Positions 16,267 through 48,328 of a DNA stretch of 48,434 nt are shown piece after piece (the first letter of the stretch is position 1; each line of letters opens with the position of its first letter). The notes below the pieces were generated by a model. That model saw only the letters and a list, made by a program, of their open reading frames with translations. It ran no database searches and was not told the DNA's origin. Source of the stretch: Lachnospiraceae bacterium AM48-27BH (lineage in GTDB: Bacteria > Bacillota > Clostridia > Lachnospirales > Lachnospiraceae); contig QUFC01000032.1 in NCBI GenBank assembly GCA_003478355.1, positions 1-48,434 on the forward strand, given 5' to 3'. The position numbers and the translations under genes are program-made.

Positions 16267-17115
16267 AACTTACGATCTGTCGGCTGTTCACGGAGCAGAT
16301 CTGGCGATTCTAAAGGAAATTGACCGGATCTGCCGAAAGCACAAGATCCAGTATCTGATGGACGCAGGGACCTTTTAGGGGCTGTCCGCCACAAGGGATT
16401 TATCCCATGGGACGATGACGCAGATGTAGCATTTACCAGAGAAAACTATGAAAAATTCAAAACGGTGGTCCGGGACGAGCTTCCAGAGGGCATGGAATTT
16501 CTGGAGCCGGATCAGATGCAGGGGGGAAAAGCATTTTTCGATTTCACTCCAAGAATCCTCTATTTAAACAGTAAAACCCATGAGGATGGACCGGAGATGG
16601 ACTTTTACGACGGCAAACTGAACCATATCTATGTGGATCTGTTTATCCAGGACCGTCTTCCGGATAATAAGCTGGCAGCGGGCTGGACGAAGCTTGTGCA
16701 GACGGTGATCTACGGTTTGGCCATGGGACACCGTTATCATCTGGATTACTCCAAGTACAGCCCAGTCAATAAGCTCTGTGTGGGCGCTTTGGCGCTCATT
16801 GGCAAGTGTATCCCTATGAACCTGATCCGGAAAATGCAGCATGCCGTGGCGGTGAAGGACCGGAACAGGGACACAGACCAGTATTATTACAGCAATTATG
16901 CACCGGATTATTTTTACGTCACGGTGCGCCGTCACTGGGTAGACCAGGTGGTGGATCTGCCATTTGAGAATATGAAGCTGATGGCGCCGGCCGGCTGGCA
17001 TCAGATTCTGGCATGGCTCTACGGCGATTACATGACCCCGCCTCCAGAAGATAAGCAGGTTCCTACCCACTCCAGCATGGAGATTGAAGTTTATGAAGAT
17101 GTCAGCTTACGCTGA
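16256..17115 (+). CDS. licD: LicD-family phosphotransferase, one apparent frameshift
   Basis: LicD proteins transfer phosphocholine or a similar phospho-group onto surface polysaccharide. The start at 16256 overlaps the end of rfbH by 11 bases. The first 41 residues end at a false stop in TTTT (16373-16376); one more T gives the family signature [25 protein letters not shown], whose acidic cluster is the presumed metal site. The rest (about 245 residues) follows in the second frame to 17115, including FFDFTPRILYLN and HIYVDLFI. The acceptor and the group transferred cannot be read from sequence; choline is suggested by the LicC-LicA fusion at 42.8-44.6 kb. Confidence 0.82.
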
Positions 17116-17149
17116 CTGTAAAAATTCGTTTACCATGAAGGAGAGGACT

Positions 17150-19447
17150 ATGGGAAATACAAAAGAAAAAGAATGGCTTTCCGTAGTTCTTCTGACCATA
17201 GCAGTGTTGGGAGCCCTGTTTTTTTCCATTGACCGGCTGTTTTTTCATGGGATTCTTGGCGCGTGTATCCGTCTGTCAGAGACCCATGAGATGGCGCTGG
17301 AACTGATGATTCTTGGGATGATCATCTTTTTTCTTCTGACTTTTACACCGGGGAAATGGAAAAGCGGTGGATTACTTTTGTTTTTTAGCGGATTTTTGTG
17401 GATACACCGGATACTGATCCCGATTCTGGTATCCGGGTGTTATCTGGCGGTGATCTGTTTCATCGGAATGAACATCGGCAGAGAGAAACTGGGGCTGCTT
17501 CGGAATTTTCTAAAGGGAAGCGCGGTGGTGATCACGTTGTTCTGTGTCATGTCTGCAGTGGGAATCGGAAGTATCCCGTGGCTGTCCACAGCAGTGCTGG
17601 CGGCAGGCAGCGTGGCGGCGATCCGGTGCTGGCGAGGAAAATGGGTCTGGAGTGCCAGAGTGTCGCTAAAGCGACCCGCCGCAGGCGGAGAATCCTGCAA
17701 GCAGGATTCTTTTTTAAGGGATACCAGCCAAAATCAGATAGTTCAGAATCTTGGCCTTACGTTTGTTCTCTTGATTCTTGCCCTTCAGGCAGGCCGGATG
17801 AACGGGGCCATTGATTTTGACAGCCTGTGGTACGGCGTGCGCGGCAGCAAGATCCTGGATATGGGAAAGGGAATTTACGAAAATCCCGGCATGATCGGTA
17901 TCGTTTATACCTACTCGAAGGGATTGGAGACCTTAACGCTCCCATTATCCGTGCTTCCGTCCTTCAGTTTCCAGATCTCGTTTAACTGGTGGCTGCTGAT
18001 CCTGACCCTGTATGGTGTATACAGAACTGCCAGCCACATGATGAGCCTGAAAATGGCTGGATATCTGACAGTATTTTTGAGCGCTGTTCCGGCGATCACC
18101 AATATGTCCATTACGGCGAAAACAGATATCATCACCCTGTTATTCCAGGTGGTGATGATCGAAGAACTGATCCGCACCCGAAAGGGAGAAGCGGGGGCTT
18201 TGGGATATGCAACAGGGGCATTCCTTCTTTCCTGGACCATGAAGCCCACGGCGCTGCTGTTTTCCAGCGCGGTGTTTGGCATGGGAGTTCTGGGAAATCT
18301 GGGATTATGGCAGCAGAGATGGAGAATGGCGGGTGGATGGCGGCTCAAAACGGAGAATTTCACCGAAAACAGAGATGGCGTGATCTGTGTGGCACTTGCC
18401 CTGGCGGCTCTTATGGGTATCTGGGCCAGAACACTTCTGATCACAGGAATTCCGGTTACCTCTGTCTTTTCTTCCATCTTTACCCGGATGGGATTTACCC
18501 TAAAATACCCATTCAGCGTCCAGACCATTCCTAATGCGGGAGAATCCTTAGGGCTGACGGCGTGGTTAAGCGAGGGCATGAAAAGACTGCTGGAGCTGCT
18601 ATTTGCCCCCACATCGGGCGAGATGCTTCATGTATTTGTAGCCTGGGGAGCCCTGAGCCTGTGGTTTGTGATCGCCCTGTTGTGTGTGCTGAAGCTCCAG
18701 GGAATATCAGGACAATCCAACAGGTACTTTTTCTGGATCTTGCTTCCATTTACCGCAGGAAATCTGTTAAGTCTATTGATGCTGACCCAGGTAGACGGCA
18801 ACTATTTTGAACTGCTCTATGTCCTCTGGGGCATCTGGGGTTTTGCAGCATTGGACCAGTTAAAGCCGGGCCATTTAAAGAAAACTGCTTATGGGATGGC
18901 AGTCGTGGTTATCTGTTATGGCGGTCTGATCACAGGTCTCACCAACTGGAGCCAGAGTGGTTGTCAGGGCTTGTTTCCGGCAAAAATGATCCATAGAGGC
19001 TACTATGATCATGAACTGGCGGCCAGGGATCGTTTTGCAGCAGAAGGAAAAGGAGAAATCTGGAATTTTCTGGCGGCGGACAGCCGAACCAGAGTGATCG
19101 CCATAGGAAGACACACCGAGTCCTTATATCTTCCATGCTGTGTCCAGACATACGAGGACGTAACCGGAAGCCAGGGAAATGTGATGCTGGTGAAGACCAT
19201 GGCCAATTTTGTGGAGTTTCTGGATTATGCAAAGACCGATTACATCTATATCGAAGCCGGATATATGGCAGAAGGGGAGCGGGCAGACATATTGACCTGT
19301 GACCTGGTGGAATATGGAATTTTAACACCGGTGTGTTATGAAAATGGCAATGTTCTGGCCCGTGTGGATGTTCACGGTGAAAAGACAGAAGAATCGGAAG
19401 AGAAGCTTGTAGAATTCAAACAAAATCGCCGGTTACAGCAACCGTGA
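17150..19447 (+). CDS. Large polytopic membrane protein, GT-C-like, with an in-frame repeat element
   Basis: About 765 residues with many hydrophobic segments and a soluble C-terminal part (roughly the last 160 residues). NGAIDFDSLWYGVRGSKIL after an early membrane segment resembles the acidic first outer loop of GT-C glycosyltransferases. The start at 17150 is chosen for GGAGAGG eight bases upstream; upstream in-frame ATGs overlap licD. Residues encoded by 17662-17715 (SLKRPAAGGESCKQDSFL region) come from a palindromic repeat inserted between membrane segments without breaking the frame. It lies between licD and a GtrB-like GT2, so extracytoplasmic sugar transfer from a lipid-linked donor is plausible but not shown. 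Confidence 0.65.
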   Translation: MGNTKEKEWLSVVLLTIAVLGALFFSIDRLFFHGILGACIRLSETHEMALELMILGMIIFFLLTFTPGKWKSGGLLLFFSGFLWIHRILIPILVSGCYLAVICFIGMNIGREKLGLLRNFLKGSAVVITLFCVMSAVGIGSIPWLSTAVLAAGSVAAIRCWRGKWVWSARVSLKRPAAGGESCKQDSFLRDTSQNQIVQNLGLTFVLLILALQAGRMNGAIDFDSLWYGVRGSKILDMGKGIYENPGMIGIVYTYSKGLETLTLPLSVLPSFSFQISFNWWLLILTLYGVYRTASHMMSLKMAGYLTVFLSAVPAITNMSITAKTDIITLLFQVVMIEELIRTRKGEAGALGYATGAFLLSWTMKPTALLFSSAVFGMGVLGNLGLWQQRWRMAGGWRLKTENFTENRDGVICVALALAALMGIWARTLLITGIPVTSVFSSIFTRMGFTLKYPFSVQTIPNAGESLGLTAWLSEGMKRLLELLFAPTSGEMLHVFVAWGALSLWFVIALLCVLKLQGISGQSNRYFFWILLPFTAGNLLSLLMLTQVDGNYFELLYVLWGIWGFAALDQLKPGHLKKTAYGMAVVVICYGGLITGLTNWSQSGCQGLFPAKMIHRGYYDHELAARDRFAAEGKGEIWNFLAADSRTRVIAIGRHTESLYLPCCVQTYEDVTGSQGNVMLVKTMANFVEFLDYAKTDYIYIEAGYMAEGERADILTCDLVEYGILTPVCYENGNVLARVDVHGEKTEESEEKLVEFKQNRRLQQP
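17662..17715 (+). repeat. Modular hairpin repeat, modules 2+3 (copy A)
   Basis: Three successive perfect hairpins: GTCGC/GCGAC (17662-17675), CCGCC/GGCGG (17676-17688) and AGAATCCTGC/GCAGGATTCT with an AA loop (17689-17710), then TTTTT. The same order, spacing and loop sizes recur at 37001-37051 with compensating base changes. It lies inside an open reading frame. Confidence 0.8.
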
Positions 19448-35741: not shown

Positions 35742-36859
35742 ATGGAACAGTCAAAAGTGTATTTTACAACCTTCAAAGCAACAGAACACGAAAATCTGCT
35801 TCAGAAGCTGCATCGTCTGATGAAAACAGCAGGATTTGAGCAGATCGATTTTACAGACAAATACGCGGCTATCAAGATTCATTTTGGTGAGTACGGCAAC
35901 CTTGCGTTCCTTCGGCCAAACTATGCAAAGGTCGTAGCAGATTATGTAAAAGAATTAGGTGGAAAGCCATTTTTAACAGACTGCAACACCTTGTATGTAG
36001 GAAGCCGTAAGAATGCCCTGGATCATTTAGACACTGCTTATGTCAATGGATTTTCTCCGCTGCAGACCGGCTGCCATGTGCTGATCGCTGATGGATTAAA
36101 GGGAACCGATGAAACCTTAGTCCCATTGAATGGCGAATACGTAAAAGAGGCGAAGATCGGTCATGCCATTATGGATGCTGACGTATTGATTTCCCTGACC
36201 CATTTTAAGGGCCACGAGATGACCGGATTTGGCGGCACCATCAAAAATATCGGCATGGGCTCCGGCTCCAGAGCTGGTAAGATGGAGCAGCACTGTGATG
36301 GAAAGCCAAGTGTTGACCAGTCCCTGTGTGTAGGCTGCGGTGCCTGCGGACGGATCTGTGCCCATGGCGCTCCGGTGATCAAAGACCGGAAAGCACCATT
36401 GACCATGACAAATGTGTAGGTTGCGGACGGTGTCTGGCTGTCTGCCCGAAGGATGCCATTGCAGCGGATTATAATGATTCCCTGAAGGTGTTAAACTGCA
36501 AGATGGCAGAGTACAGCCTGGCAGTCTGCAAGGACCGTCCATGCTTCCATGTATCCCTGATCTGTGATGTGTCTCCGAACTGTGACTGTCATCCAGAAAA
36601 TGATATTCCGATCATTCCGAATATCGGCATGCTGGCTTCCTTTGACCCGGTTGCCTTAGACCAGGCCTGCGCCGATCTCTGCAATCAGCAGACCCCGGTC
36701 GCATCCAGTATTCTTGGAGAGAACATTAAGGCTCATGGCAATCACGAGGGTCATGATCATTTCCACATGGTACATCCAGATACCGAGTGGAGAACCTGTA
36801 TCGAGCATGCAGTGAAGATTGGTCTGGGAACCGACCAGTATGAAATGGTAAGAATTTAA
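35742..36859 (+). CDS. DUF362 protein with two 4Fe-4S motifs, one apparent frameshift
   Basis: Iron-sulphur protein of unknown role; DUF362 proteins often carry ferredoxin domains. Start MEQSKVYFTTF at 35742 follows AGGAGGAG. The first cluster motif is CVGCGACGRICAHGAP; the frame then breaks near CC 36396-36397, and one more base gives IDHDKCVGCGRCLAVCPKDAI with the second CxxCxxCxxxCP motif. The rest continues to 36859, total about 372 residues, ending in a His-rich stretch (HGNHEGHDHFHMVHP) that might bind metal. Confidence 0.82.
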
Positions 36860-36880: not shown

Positions 36881-36928
36881 AAAGCTCATCCTGTGGAAGA
36901 AAATCAAAATCCACAGGGTGGGCTTTTT
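36881..36928 (+). terminator. Terminator after DUF362 gene
   Basis: 17-bp stem: 36881-36897 pairs with 36910-36926 (two G-U pairs), then TTTTT at 36924-36928. That T-tract is also the first part of the repeat hairpin at 36924-36962. Confidence 0.85.
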
Positions 36929-37051
36929 ATGTCATAGGAAACTTCGTCCTATGACATAAAAACGCTCCGCGGGATGCGCACTCGCACGAAGAAGAAATAT
37001 GTCGCAAGCGACCGCGCTCGGCGCGAGAATGTGCCAAGGCACATTCTTTTT
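36924..37051 (+). repeat. Modular hairpin repeat, modules 1+2+3 (copy B, fullest)
   Basis: Module 1: 16-bp perfect stem TTTTTATGTCATAGGA (36924-36939) / (36947-36962), loop AACTTCG, then CGCTCCGCGGGAT (36963-36975) and CGCACTCGCACGAAG. Module 2: GTCGC/GCGAC (37001-37012) and CGCGC/GCGCG (37013-37025). Module 3: AGAATGTGCC/GGCACATTCT with AA loop (37026-37047) plus TTTT. Module 1 recurs at 41370; modules 2 and 3 recur at 17662. Confidence 0.88.
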
Positions 37052-37085
37052 CATGTTTGGAACCCGGACCGGAATGGAGGAAACG

Positions 37086-41313: not shown

Positions 41314-41374
41314 AAAAAGCCACTGACAGTTTCAGATATGAGAAAATCATATGAGAAACTGCCAGTGGCTTTTT
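41314..41374 (+). terminator. Terminator of leuA
   Basis: Very long hairpin: AAAAAGCCACTG (41314-41325) with CAGTGGCTTTTT (41363-41374), continuing inward through CAGTTTC/GAAACTG and ATATGA/TCATAT. Its T-tract (41370-41374) is also the first part of the repeat hairpin that follows. Confidence 0.9.
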
Positions 41375-41430
41375 ATATGATAGGAAATTGCGTCCTATCA
41401 TATAAAAACGCTCCGCGGGATCGCACTGAA
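41370..41430 (+). repeat. Modular hairpin repeat, module 1 (copy C)
   Basis: 16-bp perfect stem TTTTTATATGATAGGA (41370-41385) / (41393-41408), 7-nt loop AATTGCG, followed by CGCTCCGCGGGAT (41409-41421) identical to copy B and then CGCACT. Two stem positions differ from copy B and both are compensated on the other arm. Modules 2 and 3 are absent; the minus-strand gene stop follows at once. Confidence 0.85.
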
Positions 41431-45021: not shown

Positions 45022-46473
45022 ATGAGAAAGCAGACAAAATTAGTTGCAGTTCTTTCTGCAGCATCTCTGTTAGCTATCGGCGCTTCCATGACCTCTTTCG
45101 CTAAAGGCTGGACTGAGGAGAATGGCGAGTGGGTTTACTTAGATAGCGACGGCGAGAGAGTAAGCCAGGAGTGGAAAAAATCCGGTTCTAACTACTACTG
45201 GTTAGACGAGAACGGTGTTATGGCTACAAGCCAGATCGTTGATGATGATGATAATACCTACTATGTAAATGAGTATGGTGTTAGAGCTAAAAATCAGTGG
45301 ATCTCCGTTGAGAACGAGGATGATGCTGATGTTAACGGCGAAGAAGTAGATACTCTGTGGTACTACTTTGGTGATAACGGTAAAGCTTACAAAGCTGATA
45401 CTGATAATCTGAAAAAGAAAACTTGTCCAGACGCTACAGGTTCCAGAACATATTTCTTCGATTCCGAAGGACATATGGTAAGTGGTTGGGTTGATTATGA
45501 GAATGATACCTACTACTGTGGTACTGAGAACGAAGGTTGGGCTTATACTGGATGGCAGTATCTTGAGCCAGATGATGATCTGAATAGCAGTGATTACGAT
45601 GATCAGGAATGGTTCAACTTCAAGTCCTCTGGTAAGGCAAGAAAGAATGCTACTTGGTATAGCAAGGGCAGATACTACACATTCGATGACAATGGTGTTA
45701 TGACCAGCGATTGGTATGATCTGGCAGTTGCTTCTAATACTAACGGTGTAGCTACTGGTACTAACGGTGGTGAGAATGCTTACACATCTGAGGATGGTTC
45801 CAAGGGTACTGGCTGGGTTTACACTGAGAACGCAGCTGAGACTGATTCTTACTGGTACTATCTGGTAAGCTTCAAAGATGCTAACGGTATTGTTCGTAAT
45901 ATTCCATTCAACTCTCAGTCTGGCGATGACATGATGAGAGCAAAAGTTATCAAGGGCAAGACTTATATCTTCAATGCCGATGGTACAATGGAAGATGGCC
46001 GTGTAATCCTGGGTTATAATACTCCAAATGATTACAAGGGTGGTGCAGTTTCCAAGGCGCTGACTGCTGGTGTTTACTACTTCAACGAGTCTGATGGTTC
46101 TTCCAATGGTCAGATGGTAACTGGTAAGACTACTGTTACTAAAGATGGTGAAGATTACTACTACTACTTCGATAAGACTACAGGTCGCGCTGTTACTGAT
46201 ATCGTTAAAGACGGTGTTGTATATGGCCATGACGGTGAGAGAATCGATGCTGAGGATGGCAACACCAACGCAATCGTAACTCTTGATCATGATACTTACT
46301 ACAACAAGAAAGTTAACGGTACAACTTGCGAGTACATCAAAGCTGGTAGCCGTGTTATCGTAAGCTCTACTGGTAAACTGAGAACTTCCGGTACTGTTAA
46401 AGTTGACGGTGTTAAGTGCCAGGTAAATGCATCTGCTGATGGTAACTGGAACGTTGCTGAGGATGTTGAGTAA
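45022..46473 (+). CDS. Secreted choline-binding-repeat protein (CBP1)
   Basis: 483 residues with a signal peptide (KLVAVLSAASLLAIGASMTSFA, cleavage near residue 27) and cell-wall-binding repeats of GW/WYY type through most of the length, spaced by acidic, Asp-rich segments (IVDDDDNTYYVNEYG). The last ~70 residues form a non-repeat end domain (VIVSSTGKLRTSGTVKVDGVK) shared with the two fragments downstream. No enzyme domain is recognised. AAAGGAG precedes the start. It is ended by a strong terminator. Likely a phosphocholine-bound surface protein. Confidence 0.88.
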   Translation: MRKQTKLVAVLSAASLLAIGASMTSFAKGWTEENGEWVYLDSDGERVSQEWKKSGSNYYWLDENGVMATSQIVDDDDNTYYVNEYGVRAKNQWISVENEDDADVNGEEVDTLWYYFGDNGKAYKADTDNLKKKTCPDATGSRTYFFDSEGHMVSGWVDYENDTYYCGTENEGWAYTGWQYLEPDDDLNSSDYDDQEWFNFKSSGKARKNATWYSKGRYYTFDDNGVMTSDWYDLAVASNTNGVATGTNGGENAYTSEDGSKGTGWVYTENAAETDSYWYYLVSFKDANGIVRNIPFNSQSGDDMMRAKVIKGKTYIFNADGTMEDGRVILGYNTPNDYKGGAVSKALTAGVYYFNESDGSSNGQMVTGKTTVTKDGEDYYYYFDKTTGRAVTDIVKDGVVYGHDGERIDAEDGNTNAIVTLDHDTYYNKKVNGTTCEYIKAGSRVIVSSTGKLRTSGTVKVDGVKCQVNASADGNWNVAEDVE

Positions 46474-46495
46474 TTAATTTTTTCAACTACAGTAG

Positions 46496-46531
46496 AAAAG
46501 AGCATTGCAGGAAAACCTGCAATGCTCTTTT
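46496..46531 (+). terminator. Terminator of CBP1
   Basis: Perfect 16-bp stem AAAAGAGCATTGCAGG (46496-46511) with 46516-46531, AAAA loop, T-tract at its end. Confidence 0.92.
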
Positions 46532-46540
46532 TGCATATAA

Positions 46541-47862
46541 GTAAATAATACCTACTATGTAAATGAGTATGGTGTTAGAGCTAAAAATCAGTGGGTTTCC
46601 GTTGAGAACGAGAACAGCGAAGATGTTAACGGTGAAGAAGTTGACACACTGTGGTACTATTTTGGCGATAATGGTAAAGCATATAAAGCAACTGCTGAAG
46701 ATGGCGATGACAAGAGAAAGAAAACTTGCCCAGATGCTACTGGTTCCAGAACATACTTCTTTGATTCCAATGGTCGTATGTTAAGCGGTTGGGTTGAAAA
46801 AGAAGGCGAACTGTACTACTGTGGTACTGAGAATGAAGGTTGGGCATATACTGGATGGCAGTATCTTGAGCCTGATGAGGATATCATGAGCGGTGATTAT
46901 GATGATCAGGAGTGGTTCAACTTCAAGTCTTCTGGTAAAGCACGTAAGGCAGCAGCAGGAAAAACAATAGATTGGTATTCCAAGGGAAGATACTATACAT
47001 TTAATGAGTATGGTATTATGACTAGCGATTGGTATGGCTTAGCTGTTAGCGGTGTTGCTACTGATAGCATTGCAACAAGCAATAATGCAAGTAAGAATGC
47101 ATATACTAGTGAAGATGGTTCTAAGGGAACTGGTTGGATTTATACCGAGAATGCAGCTGAGTCTGATTCTTATTGGTATTATCTTGTAAGCGTTAAATCT
47201 ACAGATGGAAAGAACACTTACAGAAATATTCCATTCAACTCTCAGTCTGGTGATGAAGCTTGGAGAGCAAAAACTATTAAGGGTAAAACTTATATCTTCA
47301 ATAGCAATGGTGAAATGGAAGATGGCTTAGTTATCCTTGGTAACGATGGCAATGGTACTACTGGTAAGACAAACGTTTATGATGCAAATGGAGATGCAAC
47401 ATTCGATAACAAGGGTGGTGCTGTTTCCAAAGCAATGGCAGATGGCGTTTACTACTTTAACGAGGGTAATGGTTCTGTAAATGGTCAGATGGTAACTGGT
47501 AAGACTACTGTTACTAAAGATGGTGAGAATCGTTACTACTATTTTGACAAGAAGACTGGTCGTGCTATCGATAACGAAGTTAAAGATGGTATCGTTTACG
47601 GTGCTGATGGCCAGCGTGTAGCAGCAGATGATGGAACTCTAATGAAGTAGTTGAAGTTACAAATGACACTCTGTATAAGAATGAATATATTGCTGCTAAC
47701 TCTAATATCATTGTAAGTTCTGCAGGCAAACTGAGAACTTCTGGTACTGTTAAGGTTGATGGTGTTTACTGGGATGTTAAAAAAGTAGATACTGGACGTA
47801 CTATTGATGGTAAGAAAGTTTATACTTGGGATGTTTCTTACAATGTCAAGAAAAATGACTAA
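46541..47862 (+). pseudogene. Choline-binding-repeat protein lacking its 5' end (CBP2)
   Basis: From 46547 the sequence is a near-copy of CBP1 beginning at NTYYVNEYGVRAKNQW; the signal peptide, start codon and promoter are missing, since an in-frame stop lies at 46538-46540 and only the CBP1 terminator precedes it. The first in-frame ATG is 46778. The frame also breaks at AA 47635-47636; one more A restores DDGNSNEVVEVTNDTLYKNEY and the common end domain (SSAGKLRTSGTVKVDGV) to the stop at 47862. Either a deletion fused it to the CBP1 end or near-identical tandem genes were misassembled. Confidence 0.78.
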
Positions 47863-47929: not shown

Positions 47930-48328
47930 TTACTGATTGTTAGACTCGGTAACTGTCCAAGTAGCATCCTCTTTAGTATTAGAATGAATATCATACTTAA
48001 CACCATCTACTTTAACGGAACCAGAAGTTCTCAGTTTACCTGTAGAGCTTACGATAATCACAGAATCCTTCAGAATCTTATGACCATTGTAGGTAATGTC
48101 CTCAGTAACGATATATTTAGCATTTGTATTACCATCCTCAGCATCAACTCTATCGCCTTCTGGACCATATACAACACCATCTTTAACTGTGTTCTTCAGA
48201 GCAACACCAAGCTTCTTGTCAAAATAGTAGTTGTAGATCTCACCATCATCCTCAACAGTAGTCTTGCCAGTTACCATCTGACCCTGAGCAGAACCACTGG
48301 TCTCTGTAAAGTAGTAATAACCAGCGAG
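47930..48328 (-). pseudogene. Choline-binding-repeat protein C-terminal fragment (CBP3), cut by IS
   Basis: Minus-strand frame encoding about 130 residues homologous to the end of CBP1: AGYYYFTETSGSAQGQMVTGKTTV, the YNYYFDKKLG repeat, VKDGVVYGPEGDRVDAEDGNTNA and SSTGKLRTSGSVKVDGVK, stop at 47930-47932. Upstream (above about 48328) similarity stops and IS256-like sequence begins, so the N-terminal part is separated or lost. An ATG at 48277 is internal to the repeat domain and not a native start. Confidence 0.78.

Follow-up and report, generated by a model that had tools for sequence, protein, structure and literature searches.

The repeats described here form a family of hairpin-rich sequences of about 130 nt that lie mostly at the T-tract behind terminator-like hairpins. 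They are probably (we put this at roughly 60%) non-autonomous mobile elements, which are predicted to depend on an enzyme supplied in trans and to enter the lagging-strand template in single-stranded form. The copies are numerous, share a structure and are biased in both position and replication strand, and orthologous sites occur with and without the element.

The window analysed is the whole 48,434-nt stretch of contig QUFC01000032.1 of Lachnospiraceae bacterium AM48-27BH. Its best LeuA match was 70% (in the genus of G001) and its best DNA match 78% (in a family draw of 397). A preliminary description had reported three copies of a hairpin repeat, and all three were recovered in the sequence itself, as inverted and direct repeats, and by covariance-model scores. 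With filters off, the model gave 140.9 bits at 36924-37050 (E 2e-32), this copy being one of the model's 51 training sequences, and 48.8 bits (E 3e-10) and 48.5 bits (E 3.5e-10) for the copies at 17661-17715 and 41370-41428, which lie outside the training set. One complete element is present in the window, and its 3' end was set by conservation as far as TTTTTYAT in 125 tails. The features are as follows.

36884..36928, forward strand: terminator-like hairpin of a DUF362/ferredoxin-like ORF that ends at 36859 (fold z; ORF and Pfam)
36924..37054, forward strand: full-length element, from the T-run through TTTTTCAT (covariance-model score)
36924..36962, forward strand: P1, a 16-bp hairpin with the base TTTTT...AAAAA (inverted repeats, fold, covariation)
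36963..36975, forward strand: P2, CGC-TCC-GCG followed by GGAT (covariation)
36976..37000, forward strand: linker, which would supply the 5' side of a putative long-range stem, P3 (by eye)
37001..37012, forward strand: P4, GTCGC-AA-GCGAC (fold, covariation; GCGAC belonged to the search pattern)
37013..37025, forward strand: P5, CGCGC-TCG-GCGCG (covariation)
37026..37051, forward strand: P6, AGAATGTGCC-AA-GGCACATTCT and T-tract, terminator-like (terminator scan 37025-37048; inner pairs covary)
41314..41374, forward strand: leuA terminator hairpin, its T-run common to the adjoining copy (inverted repeat I5; leuA ORF by Pfam)
41370..41428, forward strand: 3'-truncated copy with P1, P2 and GGATCGCACTG (covariance model; profile positions 1-62)
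17661..17715, forward strand: tail-only copy with P4, P5, P6 and T-tract, encoding SLKRPAAGGESCKQDSFL (in frame within the ORF 17084-19447)

The first hairpin module forms a perfect 16-bp stem at both 36924-36975 and 41370-41421 (inverted repeats I24 and I25), and these two copies make up direct repeat D11, with 89% identity over 55 nt. The second and third modules lie together at 37001-37051 and 17662-17715. The region 36924-36975 folded with z = -6.2, and 36884-36960 with z = -10.9; the T-run of the hairpin at 36884-36928 is common to the 5' end of the element. Both ends of the element are TTTTT on the same strand, and the terminator scan indicates that it closes with a terminator-like hairpin of its own, P6, and a T-tract. 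Loop sizes had been described as kept between copies, which is wrong for the first small stem, where the loop is AA in one copy (GTCGC-AA-GCGAC) but TAAA in the other (GTCGC-TAAA-GCGAC). Elsewhere in the window, 45251-47780 and 47987-48325 contain long diverged repeats, both direct (76-86% identity) and inverted (73-90%), which suggest duplicated genes.

Relatives were collected with a pattern of the tail only, in which GCGAC and AGAAT..AA..ATTCTTTT were fixed, and 92 stretches in genome contigs matched. Among the 80 matches listed were Lachnospiraceae bacteria, Coprococcus, Eisenbergiella, Hungatella, Murimonas, Clostridium, Eubacterium and unclassified Clostridiales, Eubacteriales and Clostridia bins. 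We examined 94 tail matches, two of them from the window; 78 carried P1, and 16 lacked it by our rule or had too short a flank. Seven of the 78 were dropped (at least three in which the wrong hairpin had been paired, L047, L093 and L094, and four others), and removal of near-identical sequences from the remaining 71 left the 51 of alignment A1, on which the covariance model is based. The search of relatives with such a model, which the preliminary description had suggested, found copies in plenty. All 20 seed genomes contained between 1 and 107 matches at E <= 0.001; some of the matches counted are weak, and others are shadows that the palindrome casts on the opposite strand. Within one family, made up mostly of gut bacteria, 156 of 299 genomes had at least one match; the filters were stricter here, no more than 11 candidates were scored for each genome, and some matches were weak. 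A class-wide draw gave matches in 12 of 391 genomes at the stricter E <= 1e-6, at least four of these genomes being already in the family draws. No Rfam 15 family reached its gathering threshold in the window or in the elements of 60 loci, where matches were sub-threshold only. This is a real and large family that Rfam does not list at threshold, so that annotation misses it, and the earlier claim of a dispersed, structured and covarying repeat family is supported.

In literature other than preprints and subscription papers, none of the listed titles or abstract openings concerned an element of this kind. A search of plasmids gave no match to the element, and neither did two specific element patterns in viral sequences; ten viral 16-mer matches were rejected as chance, their contexts being without element flanks. 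In a phage collection, 26 records matched the element, and the 15 of these that were listed were all unannotated human faecal 'Bacteriophage sp.' records, which may be prophage or bacterial DNA.

A search with an nhmmer profile gave 239 matches in 330 partly overlapping sequences. Of these, 180 spanned nearly the whole profile, 30 were truncated at the 3' end, 28 at the 5' end and one at both; the shares are biased, since most of the loci had been selected by a tail or by a full match. The order of the parts was fixed in relatives. Given this order and the predominance of near-full matches, the separate modules of the window read best as truncated copies of one ordered element, and not as the freely combining modules of the earlier proposal. 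A hairpin-rich insert of about 46-49 nt is optional between P4 and P6 (L212, L213 and L214 from G250, L221 from G209); L210 and L215 are two further long copies. Tails of the A type were found on other bodies in L032, L038 and L080, and judging from these sequences limited mosaicism exists.

The secondary structure is supported by covariation. In A1, 97.7% of 1462 cells were paired, and changes on both sides of a pair were found in 237 cells, compared to 73.4 in shuffled alignments (none of 500 reached 237) and at most 50 in versions with the structure slid along. The earlier observation that stem changes are compensated was thus borne out. The number of further pair types was less telling (36, compared to 31.8 in shuffles, 17 of 500 reaching 36). 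P1 was richer, several of its positions having all four pair types and one-sided changes being few, and in P2 seven of 51 rows had C-G in place of G-C at the pair 57-66, which was unpaired in five. The changes in P5 and P6 represent few events, because they largely separate two subtypes. The constancy of AGAAT, ATTCT and GCGAC proves nothing because these were in the search pattern, a constraint from which P1, P2, P3, P5 and the inner part of P6 are free. Viewed by eye, the long-range stem P3 was clear in the B-type copies and L077 and weak in the A-type copy of the window; in B-type copies P3 and P5 are mutually exclusive.

The pairs in P1 provided information on the level at which the structure is kept. 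P1 was clear in 138 of 145 copies, and 2247 of its 2323 pairs were Watson-Crick, a count favoured by our choice of the pairing register with most Watson-Crick pairs. The mismatches were 46 A.C, 17 G.T and 13 others, with an excess of A.C over G.T (P = 0.0003). Selection for structure, as put forward in the preliminary description, is plausible, but so few G.T pairs (17/2323) are unusual for a helix that is maintained as RNA. The near-perfect palindrome and the scarcity of G.T pairs suggest that P1 is maintained as DNA rather than as sense RNA. The excess of A.C pairs has the appearance of tolerated pairing in the bottom strand, or of strand-biased mutation.

The position of the element is largely bound to terminators, and neither this nor the strand bias had been noted before. 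We searched for terminator-like hairpins, defined by at least seven Watson-Crick pairs, three of them G-C, ending at most 3 nt from the T-run. Such a hairpin was found at the T-run of the element in 116 of 145 copies, at 113 of 1500 control T-runs sampled from 4249 in the same loci, and in 7 of 145 shuffled flanks. A few of the 145 copies are shadows on the opposite strand, of which L033 and L227 are among the 29 misses; eight misses come from G001 (L099 by matching coordinates), where the T-tract alone may suffice. We count the misses against a mobile element. The nearest upstream ORF was codirectional in 54 of 63 copies (62 from seven genomes, and the window copy) by a simple ORF rule, which for the window copy took a small antisense ORF and not the codirectional gene ending at 36859. 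The neighbouring genes of the copies were unrelated to one another.

Several copies lie in regulatory leaders. An Rfam scan of 60 loci detected eight T-box leaders, six of which end 12-32 nt before the element.

L208, L221, L234, L241, L243, L246: T-box ending just before the element (Rfam)
L244, L245: T-box before the element (read by eye from GGTGGTACCGCG and GGTGGAACCGCG)
L205: TPP riboswitch shortly before the element (Rfam)
L219: tRNA-Sec shortly before the element (Rfam)
L260: tRNA shortly before the element (Rfam)
L208, L234, L245, L244, L205: genes behind these copies, above the cut-off, namely pheS (L208), thrS (L234, L245), aspS (L244) and thiD (L205)
L221, L243: genes behind these copies, below the cut-off, namely trpX-like (L221) and aldo-keto reductase-like (L243)

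The element, including its terminator-like P6, separates the T-box switches from the genes they would control. With P6 between the switch and thrS or pheS, either passage of the polymerase or another promoter would be needed. In several of the T-box-leader copies, the T-tract after P6 is interrupted.

To assign replication strands, dnaA was taken as the origin and half the chromosome as the terminus; G123, where dnaA is on another contig, and the second contig of G121 were left out. Of 50 strong copies (at least 50 bits, six genomes), 48 point with the replication fork, the two opposed being at 2077546 in G313 and 3734897 in G104. At least one weaker match, at 2365003 in G250 (46.4 bits), also opposes the fork, the weak matches including palindrome shadows; these exceptions count against the proposed route. 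Other long ORFs agreed with the direction of the element in 146 of 215 cases (58 loci, seven genomes), so that the fork bias of the element exceeds that of genes (Fisher P = 1e-5). Thirteen of 14 contigs with at least two listed copies were uniform in strand, and in the remaining one, the whole chromosome of G007, the strands fit its two arms.

Orthologous sites were then compared between relatives. In the aspS leader of C. fessum, a hairpin and CTTTTT are followed by the element and TTTTTCATTATT; the site is empty in three congeners (L266, L268, L274), which have the same terminator, TTTTTT and a short spacer. Among seven congener loci of the thrS leader, L374 carries two tandem copies and L375 one copy of the other subtype, L373, L376 and L377 are without the element, L378 is ambiguous and L372 could not be aligned. 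We inspected 35 leuA orthologs by eye. P1 lies right at the terminator T-tract in L344 (degenerate) and L356, as in the window, and a hairpin and T-run without the element are present in L349, L350, L351, L353 and L354; the other 28 loci have no clear hairpin and T-run, run into the next gene, or break off early (L340). The T-runs flank the element on both sides, and the comparison of occupied and empty sites is made at T-rich sites of about 75% identity. It indicates that the same kind of site was hit in separate lineages; some of the congener sites could be old copies altered by gene conversion. Nine further C. fessum copies, at other genomic places, were 94-99% identical over 124-152 nt, which points to recent spread. 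Mobility is suggested by the occupied and empty sites and by the near-identity of copies that lie at unrelated positions within the same genome. Another repeat, about 135 nt long and carrying ACTGTTCACG and CGTGAACAGT near its ends, was seen at L245:278-412 in C. fessum (G003); more than 30 copies were listed, at 95-98% identity and on both strands, and it looks like another, strand-neutral mobile repeat.

The parasite-like behaviour of the element is well supported, and for the route and the enzyme we infer the following scheme. The fork would expose the lagging-strand template, on which the top-strand hairpin of a terminator could fold. An enzyme would recognise the hairpin and T-tract at the target as well as at the 3' end of the element (P6 and TTTTT) and cut there. 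Joining would place the element in the T-tract, where its inner A-run would pair with the T-run of the target and so form the base of P1. P6 and its T-tract would remake the target, so that further copies could land behind; a P1-like motif was found within 28 nt behind 14 of 125 tails, with a background of 1.4%. The single-stranded route is suggested by the strand bias and the hairpins, and the hairpin and T-tract at both target and 3' end, the orientation with the fork and the P1-like motifs fit an enzyme that acts on hairpins of the single-stranded lagging template. That this enzyme acts in trans is suggested by the lack of any coding copy of the element in 1.84 Mb of loci (330 sequences). 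C. fessum copies with altered T-runs served as a test of whether the target templates the outer arm of P1; read by eye, the arm was compensated in L246, L256 and L259 and uncompensated in L247, L250, L251, L258 and L260. In T-box and riboswitch leaders, some transcription would have to continue through P6, or an additional promoter would have to serve the gene.

It is possible, though rather doubtful, that these repeats represent a new class of terminator-parasitic transposons. Such a 130-nt element would find any intrinsic terminator as single-stranded DNA, by the hairpin and T-tract on the lagging-strand template, and its 3' end would be a copy of the target that enables stacking. Its main hairpin would be kept a near-perfect palindrome by templated repair, and its enzyme would belong to a family not yet linked to transposition. 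If this were true, insertions into T-box and riboswitch leaders would rewire the control of essential tRNA synthetase genes.

Other routes would also explain part of the data. A transcript ending at P6 and its U-tract could be reverse-transcribed into the T-tract, for example by the enzyme of a group IIC intron, with the A-strand of the target priming on the U-tract. The sense orientation at terminators, the 3' end consisting of a terminator-like hairpin and T-tract, and the occurrence of 5'-truncated copies agree with this, and group IIC introns require a terminator stem-loop before their target (excerpt of PMC7923331). However, reverse transcriptase matches did not track copy number: the fragmentary bins G001 (47 copies) and G014 (60) had none, G003 and G250 had one each, G018 (107 copies) had 18 and G010 (3 copies) had 20. 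Copies truncated at the 3' end were as common as those truncated at the 5' end (30 and 28), which argues against target-primed reverse transcription, and we regard the RNA route as unlikely.

Alternatively, the element could be a unit derived from an IS or similar to a REP, and be moved by a classical Y1 (HUH) transposase of the IS200/IS605 or REP-associated kind. This would account for the hairpins at both ends, the lagging-strand bias and a single-strand logic like that of IS608 and REP (excerpt of PMC6006769). A Y1 transposase was present in 11 of 15 genomes. Yet none was detected in G014, G004, G250 and G008, some of these being fragmentary bins, despite 60, 45, 26 and 4 matches to the element, respectively. 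The ends of resident IS200 copies differ from those of the element, no element match was found in their loci, and the canonical REP foot GT[AG]G is not in the consensus. We consider this explanation quite improbable.

We think it hardly probable, too, that the repeat is a host regulatory RNA, an attenuator or 3'-end module at fixed sites that is homogenised by gene conversion. The strong covariation, the terminator-like P6, the recurrence in T-box leaders of thrS and other genes, and the exclusive pairing of P3 or P5 in B-type copies would be expected of such an RNA, but the empty orthologous sites, the unrelated neighbours, the tandem copies, the copy inside a gene, the fork bias above that of genes and the rarity of G.T pairs would not. 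A BOX-like composite of freely recombining modules, the view taken in the preliminary description, is very improbable, since the head-only and tail-only copies of the window and the insert of about 49 nt that some copies carry are outweighed by the fixed order, by the predominance of near full-length matches (in loci partly picked for that), by the lack of any tandem internal module in the alignment and profile matches, and by a strand bias that differs from that of BOX. The interpretation in that description is thus partly supported.

One copy counts against insertion at terminators. The tail at 17661-17715 lies in frame in a 787-aa membrane protein, to which it adds the peptide of the feature list. 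The protein gave no Pfam match at 0.001, and its homologs are annotated, for example, as glycosyltransferase family 39 or sodium:solute symporter. The genic tail is kept in P0001-P0003 (94-97% identity), and P0004 and P0005 (76%) have other sequence in that variable stretch.

Small structured repeats are common in bacteria, and what places them is often obscure. The family we propose to be mobile combines a sharp placement rule (terminator hairpin and T-tract, with the fork) with a large covarying set of copies, which makes the enzyme and the route testable. Terminators would be a home for parasites without coding capacity, and copies between leaders and thrS, pheS or aspS would naturally give rise to changes in how genes are controlled in abundant gut bacteria.

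Among known systems, group IIC introns have as their target an intrinsic-terminator stem-loop followed by a short pairing sequence (excerpt of PMC7923331), and they resemble the element in the terminator stem-loop directly upstream (116 of 145 copies here). Unlike these introns, the element is about 130 nt long, no coding copy, ribozyme core (domain V) or encoded reverse transcriptase was found for it in the loci searched, and no Rfam intron model reached threshold. The enzymes of IS608 and ISDra2 act on single-stranded hairpins of the lagging-strand template (excerpt of PMC6006769). IS200/IS605 and REP/TnpA-REP units share with the element the hairpins near the ends and the preference for the lagging-strand template (48 of 50 here), but the lengths differ (21-65 nt, compared to about 130 nt here), 4 of the 15 genomes have no Y1 transposase, and there is no GT[AG]G foot in the consensus. 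BOX, RUP and SPRITE of pneumococcus are likewise small structured repeats in high number. In BOX, boxA and boxC enclose tandem boxB modules whose number varies, and its strand distribution mirrors the coding bias of the chromosome, with leading-strand shares of 60.8% for BOX, 60.9% for RUP and 63.3% for SPRITE; one BOX combined with two T-boxes is reported, and SPRITE is terminator-like (excerpts of PMC3049150). The element differs from BOX in its fixed order without a boxB-like tandem, its terminator-bound position, and its strand rule, 48 of 50 strong copies pointing with the fork compared to 146 of 215 genes. It is also distinct from a strict MITE, which has terminal inverted repeats, whereas both ends of the element are TTTTT on the same strand. 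Rickettsia palindromic elements occur in frame within genes, where they add a short peptide to the product. The in-frame copy at 17661-17715 resembles these elements, but it is a truncated tail, and most of the copies examined lie behind terminator-like hairpins.
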